From IMG/VR virus record IMGVR_UViG_3300042892_000894, positions 1 to 39,659 of that record: DNA of 39,659 nt. One strand, written 5' to 3'. The translations under genes and the position numbers were made by a program. This document shows, piece after piece, positions 16,137 through 27,250 of this stretch. The first letter of the stretch is position 1. Each line of letters starts with the position of its first letter. The notes under the pieces are model-generated. The model searched no databases and was not told the origin of the DNA. It saw only the letters and a list, made by a program, of their open reading frames with translations. The stretch comes from a virus.

Positions 16137-16583
16137 ATGACTAACACAATTAAGCAAGATACTAAGCTCTCTTTCCCTTGCAGCTGTAACGGGTGCCGTA
16201 ACTATCCAACACGCCCCGCCGAGATCTGGCACGAGAGCCAGATAGCAAGCAAGGCGCAAGGGTATTTTTTTACCCGTGACACTATGCGATTCTTTAATAG
16301 TAGAATTGCAGACTTTAAGCCCGTAGGGATAAGCCCTAGCGGTGTTGATAGCTTAATGGTTATCGTATCGAATAGGCGTGATGATGATCCCCGCTACTAT
16401 GAGATCATTACCCTCTGCCCTTACGGGGAGATTGGGCGCGAGTGGGCTAGAGATCAAGAGGGCACACTAATCACACAATACGCGAGCTTAGCTAAGGCGC
16501 GAAAGTCTGCCCGGTGGAATTGTACTATCGCCCCGCAGCTCTGCGATTGTCACGGGTGCCAACTAGATAAGGCGGGGCGGTAA
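16137..16583 (+). CDS. Conserved phage protein with FTRDTMRFF motif (148 aa)
   Basis: This is the first gene of the rightward early operon. The 148-residue protein has an N-terminal Cys group (CSCNGC, residues 15-20), a central GYFFTRDTMRFFNSRIADF segment (near 42-60) and a C-terminal CDCHGC group near 136-141, so it probably binds zinc. The FxRDTMRFF segment recurs in actinophage proteins of unknown function. ATG 16137 follows an AAGAG site, and the stop overlaps the next start as TAATG. The role is unknown. Early position suggests host takeover or replication support. Confidence 0.7.
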   Translation: MTNTIKQDTKLSFPCSCNGCRNYPTRPAEIWHESQIASKAQGYFFTRDTMRFFNSRIADFKPVGISPSGVDSLMVIVSNRRDDDPRYYEIITLCPYGEIGREWARDQEGTLITQYASLAKARKSARWNCTIAPQLCDCHGCQLDKAGR

Positions 16584-16974: not shown

Positions 16975-16995
16975 AGTAAAGGGGTTAAATTATGA
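16975..16995 (+). repeat. Leader repeat copy 1 (clamp start)
   Basis: The 21-base stretch that holds the ribosome site and ATG of the clamp gene recurs at 17686-17706 with one mismatch. Both contain AGTAAAGGGGTTA followed by ATTATGA. The shared part includes the start codon. Confidence 0.85.
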
Positions 16996-17609
16996 CTATA
17001 GTACAAGAGAATAAGATCATCACGGCAGGGCCTAGCCTTAACGCGGTAGAGGTAGAGGGCGCTCTATTGTTAGAGCTATTCGAGGGCGTAAGCTCTCACG
17101 CGGGGCGCGATAAGTCCCTGCCTACGCTTAACGCGGTAGAGGTAGAGGGCGGGGGAGGGTTATTTATCGCCCGTGCTACCGATAGATACCGCTTAATCGA
17201 GGGCGGGGCAAGATCCCTAGACGGTAGCTTAGATAAGGCGCTCATATCCTTAGACGATATTAAACGCATAATTGCATTACTTAAAGCGCATAAGGTGCAC
17301 CGTATCGGGCTTAACCGTATCGGTAACGCCCTAACCGTGAGCGCACTAGGCGATAGCCTTACCGTGACACTATTAGAGGGAACCTTTCCACCTACCGCGC
17401 ATCTATTCGAGGCAAGCGAGGGAGAGACTATAGCTATAGCAGGCGTAGCCTTTAACCCTGCTTACTTTACCGATTACGCTAAGATCGCGGGTAAGGGTGC
17501 AGCTATCAAAGTTTACTTTACGGGTAACGGCAAGCCTATGCGGGTCCGGATCACTAGTGACACCATAAATTGGAGAGCTTTACTTATGCCTATGCGCTAT
17601 CAAGATTAG
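16992..17609 (+). CDS. Sliding clamp-like protein (DNA polymerase III beta-like)
   Basis: The 205-residue product resembles a shortened beta sliding clamp. SLPTLNAVEVEGGGGLFIARATDRYRLI (about 42-69) reads like the clamp strand-turn ending in ATDRYRL. SLTVTLLEGTFPPTAHLFEA (about 121-140) reads like the mid-domain EG-x-FP motif. The end has the typical PMRYQD-like MPMR close (residues 200-203). Bacterial clamps are about 365-390 residues, so one domain appears to be missing and a different oligomer is likely. It would tether a polymerase to DNA. A strong AAAGGGG site precedes the ATG, and hairpins flank the gene on both sides. An 8-residue segment, LNAVEVEG, appears twice near the N-terminus. 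Confidence 0.7.
   Translation: MTIVQENKIITAGPSLNAVEVEGALLLELFEGVSSHAGRDKSLPTLNAVEVEGGGGLFIARATDRYRLIEGGARSLDGSLDKALISLDDIKRIIALLKAHKVHRIGLNRIGNALTVSALGDSLTVTLLEGTFPPTAHLFEASEGETIAIAGVAFNPAYFTDYAKIAGKGAAIKVYFTGNGKPMRVRITSDTINWRALLMPMRYQD
17037..17151 (+). repeat. 25-base direct repeat inside clamp gene
   Basis: Exact copies at 17037-17061 and 17127-17151 are 90 bases apart and in the same frame, both encoding LNAVEVEG. The second copy is at the place expected in a clamp fold. The first looks like an added duplicate. Confidence 0.85.
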
Positions 17610-17666
17610 TTAGTGCGGTAGTATCGTACTCTACTTTTACGGTAGAGTGCGGTACTATCTTACTAA
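17610..17666 (+). other. Long 57-base hairpin after clamp gene
   Basis: Bases 17610-17634 and 17642-17666 pair over 25 positions with one mismatch and a few G-U pairs, leaving a 7-base loop (TTTTACG). It begins directly after the clamp stop codon. No T-run follows. It could block 3' decay, be an RNase III-type site, or fold as single-stranded DNA during replication. Confidence 0.65.
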
Positions 17667-17685: not shown

Positions 17686-17706
17686 AGTAAAGGGGTTAGA
17701 TTATGA
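17686..17706 (+). repeat. Leader repeat copy 2 (mini-ORF start)
   Basis: This is the second copy of the 21-base clamp leader (20 of 21 identical), here in front of a 7-codon frame. See the copy at 16975. Confidence 0.85.
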
Positions 17707-17726
17707 ACGAGGGAGAGGGTAAGTAA
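17703..17726 (+). CDS. Seven-codon mini-ORF (MNEGEGK)
   Basis: After the repeated leader, ATG 17703 opens a frame of only seven codons, MNEGEGK, and its stop overlaps the next ATG as TAATG. The residues EGEGK are the same as the C-terminal end of the 78-aa gene that ends at 18535. It looks like the start and the end of a cassette gene joined, with the middle lost. It may still serve to load ribosomes for the next gene. Whether the peptide itself matters is unknown. Confidence 0.45.
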   Translation: MNEGEGK

Positions 17727-17983
17727 TGGACACACTAGAGCAACTAATAAATGAGATATACGAGGATAACTATTCTCACTTAGAGTTTGATGAAGCTATG
17801 GGAGGTGAGGGCTGCTCTTGCCCTATCCATATCACGCTCAACACTATCGTTAAATACAGAGACAAGGGAGAGGGAGAGTGCGATAAGTGCTCTAGCTCTT
17901 ATGATCTATCAAGCAGAGATAACCGCTGCGGAGATTGCGGTAATTGCGATACCTGCTGCACACACGAGAGAGAGGATAAGTAA
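17726..17983 (+). CDS. Cys-rich zinc-binding protein (85 aa)
   Basis: The 85-residue product has an acidic N-terminal helix (DTLEQLINEIYEDN), then many cysteines: GCSCPIH near 29-35, CDKC near 52-55, and CGDCGNCDTCCTHE near 68-81. At least two zinc sites are likely. The start overlaps the mini-ORF stop and uses the junction repeat as ribosome site. A different-frame ORF at 17787 lacks the cysteine pattern and a ribosome site. No family is recognised. Confidence 0.65.
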   Translation: MDTLEQLINEIYEDNYSHLEFDEAMGGEGCSCPIHITLNTIVKYRDKGEGECDKCSSSYDLSSRDNRCGDCGNCDTCCTHEREDK

Positions 17984-18145
17984 ATGAAAGAGTACGGATA
18001 CTATGTAGAGGAGATCGTAATGGTCTGTCCTAAGTGTGCAGCTAACGCGGAGTATGTGGGTCTGCTGACAGTAGCTGAGGAGGAGGGATACCCTGATGGG
18101 TACACTTGTAATGATTGCAACATAGTGATAGGAGGAGAGCTATGA
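17984..18145 (+). CDS. Zinc-ribbon mini-protein (53 aa)
   Basis: ATG 17984 follows the previous stop with no gap. The 53-residue product has CPKC (residues 15-18) and CNDC (42-45), a plain four-cysteine zinc ribbon, between YYVEEIVMV and NIVIGGEL strands. It ends in GGAGGAGAGCTATGA, where the last codons provide the ribosome site and the stop overlaps the next start. The role is unknown. Confidence 0.6.
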   Translation: MKEYGYYVEEIVMVCPKCAANAEYVGLLTVAEEEGYPDGYTCNDCNIVIGGEL

Positions 18146-18318
18146 AAGATAGATACCTAGTAACGCTAGAGATAGAGACTTACGACGGAGATCCTAAAAG
18201 TTGGAATTGGGACTATATCTTTACGGGTGAGGACGAGATCAAGGTAATCGAAAGTCAATGGAAGGGTAGAGTACTACCCACTAATGAGGGAGAGGGTAAT
18301 GAAAGTAGTAATGCGTAA
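18142..18318 (+). CDS. Hypothetical protein (58 aa) with junction-repeat tail
   Basis: ATG 18142 is in an ATGA overlap and has a strong GGAGGAG site. The 58-residue product (MKDRYLVTLEIETYDGDPKS) is a likely small alpha/beta protein with an acidic C-terminus containing NEGEGNESS from the junction repeat. It overlaps the next gene by 20 bases because the repeat is read through here instead of ending the gene. Function is unknown. Confidence 0.6.
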   Translation: MKDRYLVTLEIETYDGDPKSWNWDYIFTGEDEIKVIESQWKGRVLPTNEGEGNESSNA

Positions 18319-18535
18319 AGATTTAGCTGATGAAGGTATGAATATACCTTGTCTGTATCAAGAGGGGGGCTATTTAGACTCTAGCACTATCGCTGAAGCT
18401 ACCTACTTAGGCACGCTCAATGGAGAGGGTAGTGAGGTAGTACTGCAATTAGCTAGAGGGCAAGGAGGGTATAGCGAGATAGTTATAGTTATGTCTATTG
18501 ACCTAGATTACATACAAGAGGGAGAGGGTAAATGA
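18299..18535 (+). CDS. Hypothetical protein (78 aa) ending in EGEGK
   Basis: ATG 18299 is chosen because the junction repeat lies just before it. The frame also allows an ATG at 18284, but that would place the start upstream of the ribosome site. The product has alternating strand-like segments (EATYLGTLNGEGSEVVLQLA, GGYSEIVIVMSIDLDYI) and ends QEGEGK. It may be a small beta barrel. Function is unknown. Confidence 0.6.
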   Translation: MKVVMRKDLADEGMNIPCLYQEGGYLDSSTIAEATYLGTLNGEGSEVVLQLARGQGGYSEIVIVMSIDLDYIQEGEGK

Positions 18536-18684
18536 AACTGACAGACAAAGAATACGGAACAATCATTTTTGCACTAGAGGAGTATCAAAGTATCTTAGAC
18601 AAAGAGGGTGATGTTGCTACCCGCAACTATGTCATAGATTTAATACACAAAGTAGACAACAACAAGGGGGAGAGTAATGAATAG
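18532..18684 (+). CDS. Helical hypothetical protein (50 aa) ending in KGESNE
   Basis: ATG 18532 is in an ATGA overlap right after a junction repeat. The 50-residue product is helical (KEYGTIIFALEEYQSILDKE, NYVIDLIHKV) and ends NNKGESNE, again from the repeat. It could be a two-helix anti-host or regulatory peptide. Function is unknown. Confidence 0.55.
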   Translation: MKLTDKEYGTIIFALEEYQSILDKEGDVATRNYVIDLIHKVDNNKGESNE

Positions 18685-18802
18685 CTGGGAACTGAAAGAG
18701 GATAGCGATGTATCGTGGTGGCATTGTGGCCGTGCGGGTTACTGGGAAGGGCAAGAGGTCTATTGCTCTAAGTGTCAGACTAAATTAGAGGAGGTAGCGT
18801 AA
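18677..18802 (+). CDS. Zinc-binding mini-protein (41 aa)
   Basis: This 41-residue protein has WWHCGRAG near residues 14-21 and CSKC at 30-33. A His-Cys plus CxxC set could hold one zinc. It starts at the junction repeat, overlaps the previous gene by 8 bases, and its stop overlaps the next start as TAATG. Confidence 0.55.
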   Translation: MNSWELKEDSDVSWWHCGRAGYWEGQEVYCSKCQTKLEEVA

Positions 18803-18885
18803 TGAGTAATCTAAAAGAGTGGGTAGAGGATCGCCAACAAAATGGTGATGACGGCACAGAATATGAGGGAGATAGTGATGAATAA
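18802..18885 (+). CDS. Acidic 27-aa peptide
   Basis: The product is MSNLKEWVEDRQQNGDDG followed by an acidic tail from the junction repeat (YEGDSDE). It is short but has a GGAGG site, a TAATG overlap at its start, and an 8-base overlap with the next gene. The acidic make-up would allow DNA mimicry, but this is only a possibility. Confidence 0.45.
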   Translation: MSNLKEWVEDRQQNGDDGTEYEGDSDE

Positions 18886-19039
18886 AGAATACCTAGAGGC
18901 TAAAGTAAAGCTATGCCTAGATCAAGCCGAGATTGACATACACCAGCAAGAGATAGCGCGAGCTATCAAGAACCTAGAGCGTGCCAATAGTGCACTATCA
19001 CGCCTCTTTGGGTTGGACGAGGGAGACAGTAATGAGTAA
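18878..19039 (+). CDS. Coiled-coil hypothetical protein (53 aa)
   Basis: ATG 18878 follows a junction-repeat copy, and I prefer it to an upstream in-frame start at 18842. The product is one long amphipathic helix (YLEAKVKLCLDQAEIDIHQQ, RAIKNLERANSALSRLF) with a tail DEGDSNE. It is likely a small oligomer. Function is unknown. Confidence 0.55.
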   Translation: MNKEYLEAKVKLCLDQAEIDIHQQEIARAIKNLERANSALSRLFGLDEGDSNE

Positions 19040-19190
19040 AGAGTTTATTACTATGGCGCATTACCCCGATAGCTTGGCTTTAATACTAGAGCGACATACA
19101 CCTAGTTACGGGCTATGCACAGAGTGCAGCTCTTTCAGCACTTATGTACCTTACCCTTGTCCTATTGTTGCGGAGGCTAAAAATGAGTGA
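19032..19190 (+). CDS. Small Cys-containing protein (52 aa)
   Basis: ATG 19032 is preceded by the last clear junction repeat. The product has HYPDSLALILERHTPSYG, then CTEC and a YPCP group (near 34-48). Small actinophage proteins with a CxxC and a late YPCP are known to me as a family of unknown role. It may bind one zinc. The stop overlaps the next gene by 8 bases. Confidence 0.6.
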   Translation: MSKEFITMAHYPDSLALILERHTPSYGLCTECSSFSTYVPYPCPIVAEAKNE

Positions 19191-19488
19191 TGGAAGAGTG
19201 CCACGCATACTAGATAATGGAACTAAATTTATGGGAGACAATAATATCTACACCCTGCACCCGCCTAAGTCTGATCTAATTCTATTCTATGAAATCGTGG
19301 AGCCTAGTAATGGTATTCGCTGGGGTGGGGGAGAAGCTAAGTCTGCTATCCAATGGCTATTCCTAGCACCGGTAGGCTCACGCCTATTGGTATCAGCTTG
19401 GGATAGTGATGAGGAGGACGCTCACTTGGTAGGACAAACGATAGACATAACCGAGATTATCCAACAGGCAAGGGAGGTAGGGCTATGA
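19183..19488 (+). CDS. Hypothetical beta-rich protein (101 aa)
   Basis: ATG 19183 lies in the 3' end of the previous gene with GGAGG upstream. The 101-residue product has strands (DLILFYEIVEPSNG, AIQWLFLAPVGSRLLVSAWD) and a C-terminal helix (DITEIIQQAREVG). No family is recognised. It could be a small cytosolic regulator. Confidence 0.6.
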   Translation: MSDGRVPRILDNGTKFMGDNNIYTLHPPKSDLILFYEIVEPSNGIRWGGGEAKSAIQWLFLAPVGSRLLVSAWDSDEEDAHLVGQTIDITEIIQQAREVGL

Positions 19489-19568
19489 TGTATTGGGTGG
19501 GGATAGCGGTAGTAATGGTGATAGTCTATGGACTTATAGTGTGGGAGGACAAGATCAATGGAGAGTAA
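19485..19568 (+). CDS. 27-aa membrane peptide
   Basis: ATG 19485 overlaps the previous stop as ATGA after an AGGGAGG site. The product is almost wholly one membrane helix (YWVGIAVVMVIVYGLIVW) with a short charged end (EDKINGE). Its end overlaps the next start by 11 bases. It may be an early membrane-acting peptide. Confidence 0.55.
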   Translation: MMYWVGIAVVMVIVYGLIVWEDKINGE

Positions 19569-19839
19569 AGAGGTTAGTGGCAAGCAAGCAATTCATTACC
19601 GCAATTACCGGAGAGCAAGAGACAAGGCATTAGTTCGCCTAGCTCACCTGTATCCAGACACATACAAGCAGTTGCTTGATGAACAAAGGAGTTTTGATGA
19701 GCAAGAGGGCAAGACTTGGGTTATTGGTAGTAATAGTAGGCTTACTGTGGGTATTCATACCAGAGCGAACACACCACTTCCCTTTGGAGATCCCTCAGAT
19801 GCAGGAGCGGACGAAGGCTACGATGGAGGAGAAGCGTGA
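19558..19839 (+). CDS. Actinophage-type basic helical protein (93 aa)
   Basis: Residues 12-44 (IHYRNYRRARDKALVRLAHL, then YPDTYKQLLDEQR) match a small basic helical protein that I know from many actinophages, of unknown function, near replication genes. The C-terminal half (about 50-93) is low in recognisable features and overlaps the next gene in another frame by 143 bases. It starts with ATGGAGAG at 19558. The C-terminal half may be shaped mostly by the overlapping gene. Confidence 0.6.
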   Translation: MESKEVSGKQAIHYRNYRRARDKALVRLAHLYPDTYKQLLDEQRSFDEQEGKTWVIGSNSRLTVGIHTRANTPLPFGDPSDAGADEGYDGGEA

Positions 19840-20559: not shown

Positions 20560-20948
20560 TAGAGCTGCACCGCCTCTTCTACTGGTAGATAACCTACTAA
20601 CTTTGATACCTTGTTAGATCGTGAGAACTCTGTAGTTGCTGGCATCCAATGGTTAAACCACTCAGGTTCTGCAACATCCATTAGGTCAAAAGAAAAGACA
20701 CCTTGCGGTGTCGAGTTGATGTAGTAGGGGATAAGATCTCGCTCTGCTGCCTGGGTTATCAGCTTGCGATACTTCATCTCCTCTATCAGTAGCGTGGGAT
20801 AGTGGGTATGTCTACACTTTAACTCAATGTAATGACCTGCCTGTACAGAGATACAGTCAAAGGCATCATAGATACCTGGTGCTTTCTCTAAGTCCGGATA
20901 GAAACCTTCACGCAAGAAGGTAAACAATAACTCTTCGTTCATTGCCAA
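20559..20948 (-). CDS. PD-(D/E)XK nuclease-like protein (129 aa)
   Basis: The 129-residue product has YDAFDCISVQAGHYIELKCR (about 27-46), in which Asp31 and Glu42-x-Lys44 fit the PD-(D/E)XK nuclease core, with a preceding acidic residue in the first helix. Small nucleases of this type occur in actinophage replication modules. Its start may be ATG 20948 or the second ATG at 20942. It overlaps the sigma-like gene by 10 bases. Cleavage specificity cannot be told. Confidence 0.6.
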   Translation of the reverse strand: MAMNEELLFTFLREGFYPDLEKAPGIYDAFDCISVQAGHYIELKCRHTHYPTLLIEEMKYRKLITQAAERDLIPYYINSTPQGVFSFDLMDVAEPEWFNHWMPATTEFSRSNKVSKLVGYLPVEEAVQL

Positions 20949-21586
20949 GGACTCACCCCGCCTAGATTATCCTGCAACCTACGCAAAGACTGAGCACACC
21001 TACGATCTGCGGTAGAGATAGCGCACTCTAGTACCTGTGCTATCTGTTGCAGGGTAAAGCTCTCGTGATGGCGCATACGCAAGATTGCTTGGTCCTCTTG
21101 TTCCAACTTAAGATAGCCACGCTTGATGTCAATCAGGTTAGCAAGCAGGTTGCCACCTTCTGCCGGTGATGATGAACCTTTAGGTTGTCCATCTGAAATC
21201 ATCTCTTGTGCTTGCTCTAATACTGTTCCATCTATGACTGATGCAATAACAAAGGGTAACAACTGACCAAGTGTTGCTGACTCGTAGTAAGTCTCATCAT
21301 TAGTTTGATAGCCAGACTTAGCTGCCTTCTCCTTGCGTGCGTAGCGTTCTCCTGCACGCTTCATCTGCCAGGCTATGCGCTGCTCGTTATGTCTGCGCCT
21401 ATCTTCGATAGGTTCCATTAGATAGACAGTATGATCTTCAACCCTAGTCATAGCCCAAGCCATCAACTCTTGCTTGATGTCATCAAGTTCAACGTGCTTG
21501 TTATACCTACGATAGATAGTGTTAGCAACGCTAGGTACTAGGTCATAGATTACTGGGTGTAGTTCAGTCACGAGGCCACTTACCAT
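20939..21586 (-). CDS. Sigma-70-like factor (215 aa)
   Basis: The 215-residue product has a region 2-like N-terminus (ANTIYRRYNKHVELDDIKQE, near 21-40, then LMAWAM) and a region 4-like helix-turn-helix (EDQAILRMRHHESFTLQQIA, then LECAISTADRRCAQSLRRLQ; about 162-205). A long linker joins them. It likely directs RNA polymerase to phage promoters. The start is uncertain: ATG 21586 lacks a strong ribosome site, and GTG 21571 is possible. It overlaps the preceding gene by 23 bases. Confidence 0.7.
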   Translation of the reverse strand: MVSGLVTELHPVIYDLVPSVANTIYRRYNKHVELDDIKQELMAWAMTRVEDHTVYLMEPIEDRRRHNEQRIAWQMKRAGERYARKEKAAKSGYQTNDETYYESATLGQLLPFVIASVIDGTVLEQAQEMISDGQPKGSSSPAEGGNLLANLIDIKRGYLKLEQEDQAILRMRHHESFTLQQIAQVLECAISTADRRCAQSLRRLQDNLGGVSPWQ

Positions 21587-23150: not shown

Positions 23151-23245
23151 TCTTCGACCTCTGCTTCTTCTTTTACTTCTTCTACTGGTACAACTTCTGG
23201 TACAAGTATCTCTGATGTTGTAATTTCTCCACCTGGTACTGGCAT
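23147..23245 (-). CDS. Acidic 32-aa peptide
   Basis: ATG 23245 overlaps the resolvase stop as TAATG, with AAAGGAG at a good distance. This favours it over the ATG at 23266. The product starts MPVPGGEITTSEILVPEVVP and continues with an almost purely Glu/Val tail. It could mimic nucleic acid, but nothing shows this. Confidence 0.5.
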   Translation of the reverse strand: MPVPGGEITTSEILVPEVVPVEEVKEEAEVEE

Positions 23246-23595
23246 TACTGTTTCTCCTTTAGCCATTGTGCTAGGTCTTGAATGACCCAGGCTTGATCTA
23301 TTGATGCGTTGCGACGCTTAACTATTACATAAGAAAGAGGAACTTCCCCAAGACCCCTAGCCTTTGCATAGTTAAGCGCCTCAACTTGCGCTTCTCTCCA
23401 GAACTCAGGCAAGGAAAGGGTTGCCCTGTTCTTGAGTTCAAGGATGTAGGTTTCTCCCGCGATAACAGTAACGATGTCGCCCTCATCCTTTGCCCCAGCT
23501 TTAGTCAAACGTTCTGCAAGTACCCCCGCCTTTCGGAGCCACTTCATTACATCTGTCTCAAACTGAGAACCTTTAGTCTTGTTGTACTGACTCAT
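23245..23595 (-). CDS. Holliday junction resolvase-like PD-(D/E)XK nuclease (116 aa)
   Basis: The sequence GSQFETDVMKWLRKAGV (Glu13), DEGDIVTVIAGETYILELKN (Asp40, Glu53-x-Lys55) and a later basic helix give the PD-(D/E)XK set of archaeal Hjc-like and phage resolvases. It would cut branched DNA during replication or before packaging. It overlaps the preceding gene by 23 bases and the next by one base. A VRR-NUC or other small nuclease is the main alternative. Confidence 0.75.
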   Translation of the reverse strand: MSQYNKTKGSQFETDVMKWLRKAGVLAERLTKAGAKDEGDIVTVIAGETYILELKNRATLSLPEFWREAQVEALNYAKARGLGEVPLSYVIVKRRNASIDQAWVIQDLAQWLKEKQ

Positions 23596-24966: not shown

Positions 24967-25365
24967 TTATCGAACCCAGATAGTGTCGCACTTATCTGGT
25001 GCACCCTTTGGTGTTGGACACATCCAACCCTGCCAAGGACCCTTTGTAGATGTACCTGTCTTGTAGGTCATTGCTCCGTGCTTACAAGTATTACCGCCAC
25101 CTGATGGTGCTGGCGTTGAGTTTGATGGTAACTGCACTGGTGTGCCACCAAATGCTGCAGCAACTGATGCAACTGATGGTGCTGCTGGTGCAGACTGTGG
25201 ACCTGTGTAAAGTTCTGCCTCTGTTGACTTAATCAACGCAGCAATCATTGAGATATCAGTGATCTGAGTTTCTAGTTCTCTAATGTTATCTGCATAAATG
25301 TTTACTAGTGTTCCATCTTTGTGTGTCTTAAAGTTGATCTGATACTTAGTTGTTTCTGAAGCCAT
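24967..25365 (-). CDS. Putative ssDNA-binding-like protein with C-terminal zinc element (132 aa)
   Basis: The N-terminal half is strand-rich (TKYQINFKTHKDGTLVNIYA) with a following helix, a Pro/Ala/Ser linker lies around 55-92, and the C-terminus has CKHGAMTYKTGT, WQGWMCPTPKGAPDKC. The Cys-x-His...Cys...Cys end is known to me from actinophage proteins near SSB and recombination genes. A nucleic-acid binding role is inferred. The ATG directly follows the stop of the Cas4-like gene and has GGAGG. Confidence 0.6.
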   Translation of the reverse strand: MASETTKYQINFKTHKDGTLVNIYADNIRELETQITDISMIAALIKSTEAELYTGPQSAPAAPSVASVAAAFGGTPVQLPSNSTPAPSGGGNTCKHGAMTYKTGTSTKGPWQGWMCPTPKGAPDKCDTIWVR

Positions 25366-26313
25366 TTACTTTCCTCCACTTTGTTTTACGGATAGTCGCT
25401 GACTCTCAGCTCCTACCTTCTTAGGGACAAACCCTAATAGTTTTTCTACCTGCTCACTGTCAACTGACTCGCGTCCTTTAACAGTAGTCCAACTCACTTC
25501 GATACCTGAATTAGTAGTACCCAGCACTCCTTCTAGCGATGCCTTCAAAGAATCCTGTCGTGTCTCTAACTCTTTGATCTGCACTGCTAACTGTAAGTAC
25601 AACAGTGCATTCTTGTCAACATCTGCATCAGCAATGATTACATCACTGACTGGTATACGTTCTTTTTTTAGACCAACGCATCCCATCTCACCTGATGAGT
25701 CGTAGAACTTACAGTAGTGCTGGCAGTAACTTGCATCCTTCTCAGGTGCCGGTGCTTCCTTAGCTTCCTTAACAGCCGCTAGCCAACCGAGTGCCTCAAG
25801 TGCGATTGATTCGTCGTAGTCCTCAGTGTGAACCTTGACATCTCTTTCATCGCCGTCCCTTGCGATAGCCACAAGTGACACTCGGTTGACCGCATAGCCG
25901 TTCTTAGCTAGGAGGTAGCCGTATAGCTGCACCTGCCACCGTTGTTGTGTTGATGGGAAGTAAGAAAGGTTACGCACCTTGCTTGTCTTCCAGTCAATCA
26001 CATCACCGGTACCAGGTACGAAACAGTCAATGTGTGCTTTCATTCCATTGTATTCAACTTCAGTTTCAATCAGCACATCTGGATTATCTGCTAACGCTTT
26101 CTCAATCTCTGCGTGGATAGCAGTACCCATTATCGCAGCAAGTTTTAATTCGTTGTCATTAGTTTCAGGTTGATCGTTGAGTCGGTACCACACCTTACGG
26201 CGACAGCCACCTACCTCTGATGGACCAATCTGTACCTGTGTAGATCGTGAACGCTTCGCGTCCCCTGCACGTAGTGCAGTAAGTAGTAATTCCTTTGGAT
26301 CAGTTGTTGTCAT
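25366..26313 (-). CDS. Cas4/RecB-like exonuclease with Fe-S cysteines (315 aa)
   Basis: ATG 26313 with AAAGGA is chosen; the frame is open to a TTG at 26403. The nuclease set is GTAIHAEIE (His67), HIDCF (Asp96), VIDWKTSK (Asp107-x-Lys109) and QRWQVQLYGYLL (Gln and Tyr). Cys37 (GGCRRKVWY) together with C196, C200 and C211 (CQHYC...C) forms the four-cysteine Fe-S site of Cas4 and AddB-type nucleases. It probably resects DNA ends during phage recombination or host DNA breakdown. No CRISPR array or other cas gene is in the window. Confidence 0.8.
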   Translation of the reverse strand: MTTTDPKELLLTALRAGDAKRSRSTQVQIGPSEVGGCRRKVWYRLNDQPETNDNELKLAAIMGTAIHAEIEKALADNPDVLIETEVEYNGMKAHIDCFVPGTGDVIDWKTSKVRNLSYFPSTQQRWQVQLYGYLLAKNGYAVNRVSLVAIARDGDERDVKVHTEDYDESIALEALGWLAAVKEAKEAPAPEKDASYCQHYCKFYDSSGEMGCVGLKKERIPVSDVIIADADVDKNALLYLQLAVQIKELETRQDSLKASLEGVLGTTNSGIEVSWTTVKGRESVDSEQVEKLLGFVPKKVGAESQRLSVKQSGGK

Positions 26314-26449
26314 TGTTATCCTTTTCGTGCAATAGATAAGCAAGTCTACAAGCCATCCAACCTTGTTGAAACCAATGGTGTGCAGCGTATTCTTTTGTTG
26401 CAAAGATCTCTTTCATCTCGTGCTTAATGTAAACACTTTCACTATCCAT
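26300..26449 (-). CDS. Hypothetical mini-protein (49 aa)
   Basis: ATG 26449 overlaps the upstream stop (TAATG) and has a GGAGGAG site. The product (MDSESVYIKHEMKEIFATKE, then YAAHHWFQQGWMACRLAYLL) is helical with a polar Asn/Asp end. It overlaps the start of the exonuclease by 14 bases. No family is recognised. Confidence 0.6.
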   Translation of the reverse strand: MDSESVYIKHEMKEIFATKEYAAHHWFQQGWMACRLAYLLHEKDNNDNN

Positions 26450-26692: not shown

Positions 26693-27250
26693 CTAGAACC
26701 GTTCTTGGACTACTAACTGTATGGGCTTACCAGTGTTAGCGTCAAGCACCGACGCAATCTCTACTGCTTTACGGGCGTGTCGCTTAGCAAAGGCTACGTC
26801 CATATCAGGTTTGCAAACTGAATACAGGTAGCCAAGAGCAAGTTGACCCCCACTACCAATGCCATACGCTCCGTGATTTGCTTGGAAAAAAGAGAGATCA
26901 CAAGCAATACGAAAGATATTGCCGTTAAAAGCAATGAGATAATCAAAGCCACCATCTTTGTCCGCCTTGTTGTAGTCGTAGTTGTTATCGGTAAATGCTT
27001 GGTTGATACTGGGTATAACTTTCTTTCCCATAAATTGTGCTGGGTCTTCACCCTTGTACGCCGGAGGCTTCCAGTTATAGGCAAGGATGTCACCTGGCCT
27101 AGTATCACCTGATATCCCGATGAGATACTTACCAACCTCAACGATCTTGGGTGTACTGGTCGCTAACGTCACGAGATTATCTTCGGTGATCTGTGAGTCA
27201 GCTACTAGAACTGCGTAATCAATACCCTCAAGCGCTGCGATTGTTGTCAT
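26693..27250 (-). CDS. Proteasome/HslV-like Ntn hydrolase (185 aa)
   Basis: The protein begins MTTIAALEG. After loss of Met, Thr1 would be the nucleophile as in HslV and 20S beta subunits. Asp17 (VADSQIT) is at the same mature position, a Lys at 34 (STPKI) is one off from the canonical Lys33, and GIGSGGQLALGY (Ser at mature 132) matches the GSGG motif around canonical Ser129. Length (185) is close to HslV. It would form a self-compartmented protease, or act on a small substrate. No HslU or Mpa-like ATPase is in the window, so partners would be host-made. It is the first gene of the leftward replication operon. It lacks a strong ribosome site. Confidence 0.85.
   Translation of the reverse strand: MTTIAALEGIDYAVLVADSQITEDNLVTLATSTPKIVEVGKYLIGISGDTRPGDILAYNWKPPAYKGEDPAQFMGKKVIPSINQAFTDNNYDYNKADKDGGFDYLIAFNGNIFRIACDLSFFQANHGAYGIGSGGQLALGYLYSVCKPDMDVAFAKRHARKAVEIASVLDANTGKPIQLVVQERF

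Follow-up and report, generated by a model that had tools for sequence, protein, structure and literature searches.

An array of overlapping small phage genes linked by a recurrent purine-rich junction, and the turnover of its gene content

The window, by which we mean the whole stretch of DNA analysed, corresponds to one IMG/VR virus record, 39,659 bases long. Its TerL is nearest to that of the unannotated ct2KA10 genomes (46%) and then to those of Streptomyces phages (44%), all below 60% identity, and a clamp-like gene gives weak tblastn matches in Arthrobacter, Rhodococcus and Gordonia phages. These matches to actinophages suggest that the host is probably an actinobacterium. A cultured relative was found neither by a DNA search among annotated phages nor by tblastn with two of the array genes, and a scan of genome contigs revealed no prophage form.

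About ten overlapping small genes of the + strand lie between the clamp-like gene (16992-17609, +) and a gene at 19558-19839, and the end of this array reaches approximately 19558, beyond the interval 17709-19034 first described. The clamp-like gene, which forms the left border, fails the curated cut-off of Pfam DNA_pol3_beta_2 (E=0.006), matches PHROG 947 processivity factor (E=3.5e-14), and has a tblastn match to the clamp of Arthrobacter phage DrYang. Between it and the first array gene, an alignment of 12 sequences and their consensus fold delineated a conserved leader hairpin (17610-17666, +) of 25 predicted pairs, with two-sided changes at 5 of them. No Rfam match was obtained in the window, this hairpin included; it possibly serves the array as attenuator, processing site or operator.

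All features of the array are on the + strand; genes and families were defined by gene calling and family clustering, and the numbered junction copies by motif search. Junction copy 1 (17709-17724) falls within a micro-ORF encoding MNEGEGK and a stop codon (17703-17726), recognized by aligning the leader with those of contigs L008, L003 and L005. Then come a Cys-rich cassette gene (17726-17983, family 8, found in 20 arrays), a junction variant GAGAGAGAGGATAAGTAA (17966-17983), a cassette gene with CxxC pairs (17984-18145, family 52) and the near-core gene MKDRYLV... (18142-18318, family 4). Copy 2 (18286-18301), an exact one with the upstream tail EGEGNE, leads to the cassette gene MKVVMRKD... 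(18299-18535, family 68), whose start at 18299 is backed by relatives. This gene is joined through copy 3 (18518-18533, tail EGEGK-stop) to a cassette gene of family 36 (18532-18684), and the latter through copy 4 (18664-18679, tail KGESNE-stop) to one of family 17 with a CxxC pair (18677-18802). A second junction type, GAGGAGGTAGCGTAATG (18788-18804), precedes a cassette gene for an acidic 27-aa peptide (18802-18885, family 22), followed by copy 5 (18865-18880, tail EGDSDE-stop), the core gene MNKEYLEAK... (18878-19039, family 0, present in 100 of 104 arrays), copy 6 (19019-19034, tail EGDSNE-stop) and a cassette gene of family 18 (19032-19190). The remaining three are core genes: family 1 (19183-19488), family 2, of 27 aa with a hydrophobic stretch (19485-19568), and MESKEV..., family 3, the right border (19558-19839). 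The small array genes are probably early phage genes.

Elsewhere in the window lie genes for a Cas4/RecE-like exonuclease (25366-26403) and for a Holliday-junction-resolvase-like protein (23245-23595), and no integrase was found among the 20 window proteins scanned, a set that includes short ORFs in part. The gene adjoining that of the exonuclease (24967-25365, -) matches the mycobacteriophage L5 gp49 family (Pfam) and PHROG 364 ribonucleotide reductase. A protein encoded at 20939-21586 (-) resembles sigma-70 region 4 and is a possible phage sigma factor, and the product of 26693-27250 (-) matches Pfam Proteasome-subunit (E=4e-11).

The sequence-only reading of this DNA had proposed that at six junctions one purine-rich string serves as the end of a gene, the ribosome site of the next and its start codon. 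Counting confirmed this: GAGGGAGAGGGTAATG, with at most 3 mismatches, matches the window 8 times against 0.27 expected (shuffles: sd 0.60, largest 3). Seven of the eight copies are on the + strand within 17709-19034 and six occupy a junction position, while the eighth, at 16406 (-), bears no relation to any start. At 17709 the claim held in part, as this copy does end an ORF but one of only 7 codons, not a normal gene. The degenerate tails said to be shared by the upstream proteins are seen at all six copies. The joints 17983|17984, 18145|18142 and 18802|18802 have related or other Shine-Dalgarno strings, such as the second recurrent type GAGGAGGTAGCGTAATG, and a third type, GAGGAGGAGGAGAATGAG, occurs in relatives. 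The two copies noticed inside genes are present as well, at 17870 (gene 17726-17983) and 18419 (gene 18299-18535). Homologues have them at corresponding positions (e.g., GEGECDKC in family 8), and such in-gene copies could be relics of joints between genes that have since fused.

Relatives were gathered from IMG/VR by scans with three window proteins, 105 independent contigs being kept after near-identical ones were dropped, and their genes were called with a custom program using Shine-Dalgarno energy, overlap and length criteria. This yielded 104 independent arrays with 1,339 small genes in 262 families (136 singletons). Family building relied on single linkage (E<1e-4), which may have separated distant homologues and raised the diversity of neighbours to some extent. 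The exact string GAGGGAGAG occurs 245 times on the + strand and once on the - strand in the 239 kb of array DNA, against 6.5 in shuffles (sd 2.7). A called start follows within 12 nt in 186 of the 245 cases, a zone that makes up 7.3% of array DNA; the other 59 exact copies lie away from called starts, mostly in the same frame. The string is thus far from equally common elsewhere, with 1.03 copies per kb in arrays vs 0.053 per kb in non-array DNA of the same contigs (about 19-fold). Moreover, allowing 1 mismatch, it precedes none of the 34 non-array genes of the window, despite equal or stronger Shine-Dalgarno strings in several of them.

The motif is not obligatory at joints, as only 356 of 1,235 (29%) have it at up to 1 mismatch and many of the gain and loss events described below have short flank repeats. 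Joint strings are purine stretches of 9-25 nt. At 1,102 of the 1,235 joints the two genes abut or have an overlap of 0, 1, 4, 8 or 11 nt, and in an entropy test this overlap class appeared to depend on the upstream and the downstream gene alike. Conservation around joints sets in abruptly at the first motif base and fades past the start codon. By its anti-Shine-Dalgarno pairing and its proper distance to the start, the motif is also an ordinary Shine-Dalgarno site, yet an array-specific one. At 317 of the 356 motif joints, the upstream gene reads the motif as Glu-Gly-Glu (EGE). This frame lock was discarded as an argument for the motif, since joints with GGAGG and no motif are equally locked (151 of 168).

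Comparison of the 104 arrays showed no single fixed gene set. A scaffold of near-core families, namely 4 (79 arrays), 0 and 1 (100 arrays) and 2 and 3 (93-94 arrays), is separated by variable slots. Order is mostly conserved, and 35 of 643 co-occurring family pairs appear in both orders, indicating that some genes change slots. Across 78 arrays, 30 different families follow family 4, and 31 precede it; family 0 has 25 followers and 29 predecessors. In contrast, the joint between families 2 and 3, which is free of the motif, keeps its order in 90 of 92 cases; as only 5 joint types are fixed, the contrast between fixed joints and variable ones is no more than suggestive. With its cassette genes at predictable positions between the core genes, this simple architecture could serve to find new small phage proteins.

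We identified 102 distinct clean gain or loss events that map to junctions: X-Y in one phage stands against X-Z-Y in another, with Z being 1-3 genes and both flanks at least 85% identical. The gain and loss of genes without an integrase, as the sequence-only reading had suggested, is thus supported by one gene pool in many combinations with switches at junctions. The comparison of arrays shows gene content turning over by one or few genes per step, with breakpoints at the joints. Where a pair has the upstream gene in common, identity is 0.93 before the motif and 0.94 inside it, then falls to 0.31 and 0.26 within about 20 bases; pairs with a common downstream gene give the mirror image. This sharp profile alone is no proof of crossover in the motif, because pairs selected for unlike neighbours will necessarily show a homology step close to gene ends.

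The window itself provides an example. It shares with contig L123 a five-gene block (17966-18809, 844 bp, families 52-4-68-36-17) that is 92% identical, with homologous flanks at 79% and 76%. Its left end lies in the joint GAGAGAGAGGATAAGTAA|ATG and its right end in GAGGAGGTAGCGTA|ATGA, at the joint of the second type (18788-18804). Before the block the window has family 8, where L123 has families 5-27; after it, the window carries the 27-aa gene of family 22, absent there from L123. The nearest contig differs from gene to gene within the window array. Family 5 (MTVERVRHSGA...), the usual first gene, is absent from the window and present at that point in L008, L003 and L005. Its leader and start codon are fused here to a joint copy, giving the 7-codon ORF at 17703-17726, which is probably the scar of a deleted family-5 first gene.

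Repeats flanking the exchanged genes bear on how such steps occur. Flank repeats of at least 9 nt accompany 38% of single-gene events vs 18% of distance-matched controls (p=8e-4), and the excess persists against other joints of the same array (p=0.003) and with one value per cassette (p=0.003). The longest, such as AGGAGGTAGCGTAATGAATA and GAGGGAGAGGGTAAGTAATG, measure 18-20 nt. For roughly two thirds of the events the flank repeat stays below 9 nt, close to the control level, and across families the correlation of repeat length with neighbour diversity was not significant (p=0.15). From these repeat statistics, we infer that crossover inside the motif may be one route of exchange. The proposal that genes are shuffled by recombination at a shared junction therefore stands for the location of turnover at joints, while the motif is not required and crossover within it is a plausible route.

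Taken together, we consider it fairly probable that the small genes of the region make up an operon interlinked by translation and acting as a modular array, with short-repeat recombination driving part of its turnover. Each joint would combine the 3' codons of the upstream gene, a Shine-Dalgarno site and a stop/start (ATGARTAA or TAATG overlaps). Since almost every upstream gene reads the purine string in one frame (GAG codons), exchanging any two joints would keep the stop, the ribosome site and the start intact. Part of the turnover would be homology-assisted, through short repeats, between joints or between co-infecting phages, with the help of phage or host recombination proteins, in line with the exonuclease and the resolvase-like protein that this phage encodes. 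As most joints have no long repeat, illegitimate recombination followed by selection for intact coupled genes would also have to act and account for the rest.

It is conceivable, if rather doubtful in our view, that translation constraint explains everything: illegitimate recombination would strike anywhere, only in-phase products preserving the Shine-Dalgarno site would survive, and the motif would play no recombination part, its string recurring as the best Shine-Dalgarno/stop/start solution under gene overlap. Such a reading accommodates the pairing of the motif with the anti-Shine-Dalgarno, the more than half of joints that have other Shine-Dalgarno strings and are equally variable, and the GAG frame preference seen without the motif; the strings ACAGGAGAA of ct2KA10 and GAAGGGAAG of L117/L132 could likewise be lineage ribosome-site preferences. 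However, the motif is not the strongest such site, its duplex energy with the anti-Shine-Dalgarno being about -9 kcal/mol against -11 to -13 kcal/mol at GGAGG joints, and it is missing from the other genes of the phage. Moreover, the repeats flanking gains and losses exceed both the matched and the within-array controls, and in some events the conserved identity reaches into the first codons ATGAATA.

The free variation of joint sequences within an array (second type GGAGGTAGCGTAATG, third type GAGGAGGAGGAGAATGAG), a spacing between motif and start that varies by 4-5 nt and the lack of any conserved extension seen beside the joints make it improbable that the motif is the binding site of a regulator or phage translation factor, a role suggested for the start-associated sequences (SAS) of mycobacteriophages, with shuffling being incidental, even if a string repeated at starts, strand-specific and array-specific, with a lineage-specific consensus as in SAS, is what such a site would look like. 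The acidic Gly-Glu tail might also be a functional protein tag on small proteins, considering that EGE is about 13-fold enriched among the last 10 residues of array proteins. We regard this as very unlikely: in EGE tails the Gly codon is GGA in 129 of 153 cases (84%) and Glu is GAG in 92-94%, vs 25% and 70% in gene bodies, and the family 30 protein ends in TGENNE in ct2KA10 and in GEGNE elsewhere. With synonymous positions fixed far above gene-body codon usage, it is the DNA that is conserved, and tails such as EGEGK and EGDSNE are by-products of this conservation.

A distant relative, ct2KA10, shares array genes and shows similar behaviour with another joint string. Two ct2KA10 genomes possess a related array (families 8, 30, 9 and others) with zero copies of GAGGGAGAG, whose joints repeat ACAGGAGAA; in a 12-kb piece of OX376641, all 8 copies of ACAGGAG on the + strand precede a start. 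These siblings, L218 (OX376641) and L219 (OX376640), are 98.6% identical over 2.4 kb including the terminase gene and differ strongly in array content, a 35-aa gene (family 261) lying between shared neighbours in just one of them; they are a ready close pair for the study of recent cassette exchange. Other strings are found in L117/L132 (GAAGGGAAG), L157 (AGAAGGAGG) and L011 (GAGAGAGGGA). In the main group, joint strings are more homogeneous within the same contig (0.152 vs 0.143), above all permutations, yet by a small difference. The joint string thus seems to follow lineage more than gene. Tentatively, one could go further and imagine an integrase-free, phase-locked cassette platform in which each lineage maintains its joints in concert (GAGGGAGAG for the present group, ACAGGAGAA for ct2KA10, GAAGGGAAG for L117/L132) and incoming genes, possibly anti-host or anti-defence, receive the recipient's joint string by joint recombination; we see this as a speculative extension that is less likely to hold than to fail.

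How phages gain and lose small early genes singly is an old open question, and the roles of homologous boundary sequences and of illegitimate recombination have been debated since the lambdoid work. With 104 arrays and 102 clean events, and more relatives public, these phages offer a natural data set for a quantitative test of the joint hypothesis. The sequence-only reading knew of no earlier description of the mechanism; in fact the lambda nin region, the SAS of mycobacteriophages and the PeSL of T4 are close precedents. The classic case of small genes chained through their stop and start codons is the lambda nin region (Kroger & Hobom 1982, as cited in PMC8022706). For lambdoid mosaicism, conserved boundary sequences were proposed as a driver in a model cited in PMC3029335, and a passage of the same article says that they are unidentifiable at most mosaic boundaries. 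Like our array, lambda nin consists of small genes in a tightly packed operon with stop/start overlaps, with mosaic gene content among relatives and short boundary homology proposed to drive exchange. Its joints are plain ATGA, whereas those of the array have a purine string of 9-16 nt and overlaps of 1, 8, 4, 11 or 0 nt. Moreover, this phage is not lambdoid: its TerL is actinophage-like (nearest ct2KA10 and Streptomyces phages), and neither Q nor lambdoid genes were seen among the window proteins scanned.

SAS/ESAS elements are found in Cluster K mycobacteriophages and Microbacterium cluster EF (PMC3203893, PMC7302621), and the authors suggest that these short repeats could also be recombination targets (PMC3203893). 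As with our motif, a string repeated in one orientation marks the ribosome site of non-structural genes, is better conserved than a Shine-Dalgarno and has a lineage-specific consensus. SAS mostly precede genes more than 50 bp from their upstream neighbour, often with inverted repeats (PMC3203893, PMC7302621), whereas array genes overlap and the string is coding; the 13-bp SAS consensus GGGATAGGAGCCC had 0 matches at up to 2 mismatches.

Integron gene cassettes form arrays of small, mostly unknown genes that are gained or lost singly. The array resembles them in this one-by-one traffic, but no integrase was found among the 20 window proteins scanned, and its cassettes are translationally overlapped. 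T4-type phages are said to have PeSL promoter/stem-loop cassettes, reportedly described by Arbiol in 2010 and Comeau in 2014. PMC4503421 cites PeSL, short regulatory elements that recur at the borders of genes and would mediate the modular shuffling of small genes. The joints share with PeSL the short repeated border element tied to small-gene shuffling, but PeSL are intergenic promoter and stem-loop units, whereas array joints have no intergenic space. The array shares some features with lambda nin, SAS and PeSL and lacks defining features of each; by analogy, the SAS of Cluster K are the nearest relatives of the motif in kind, and the PeSL of T4 the nearest functional analogue.
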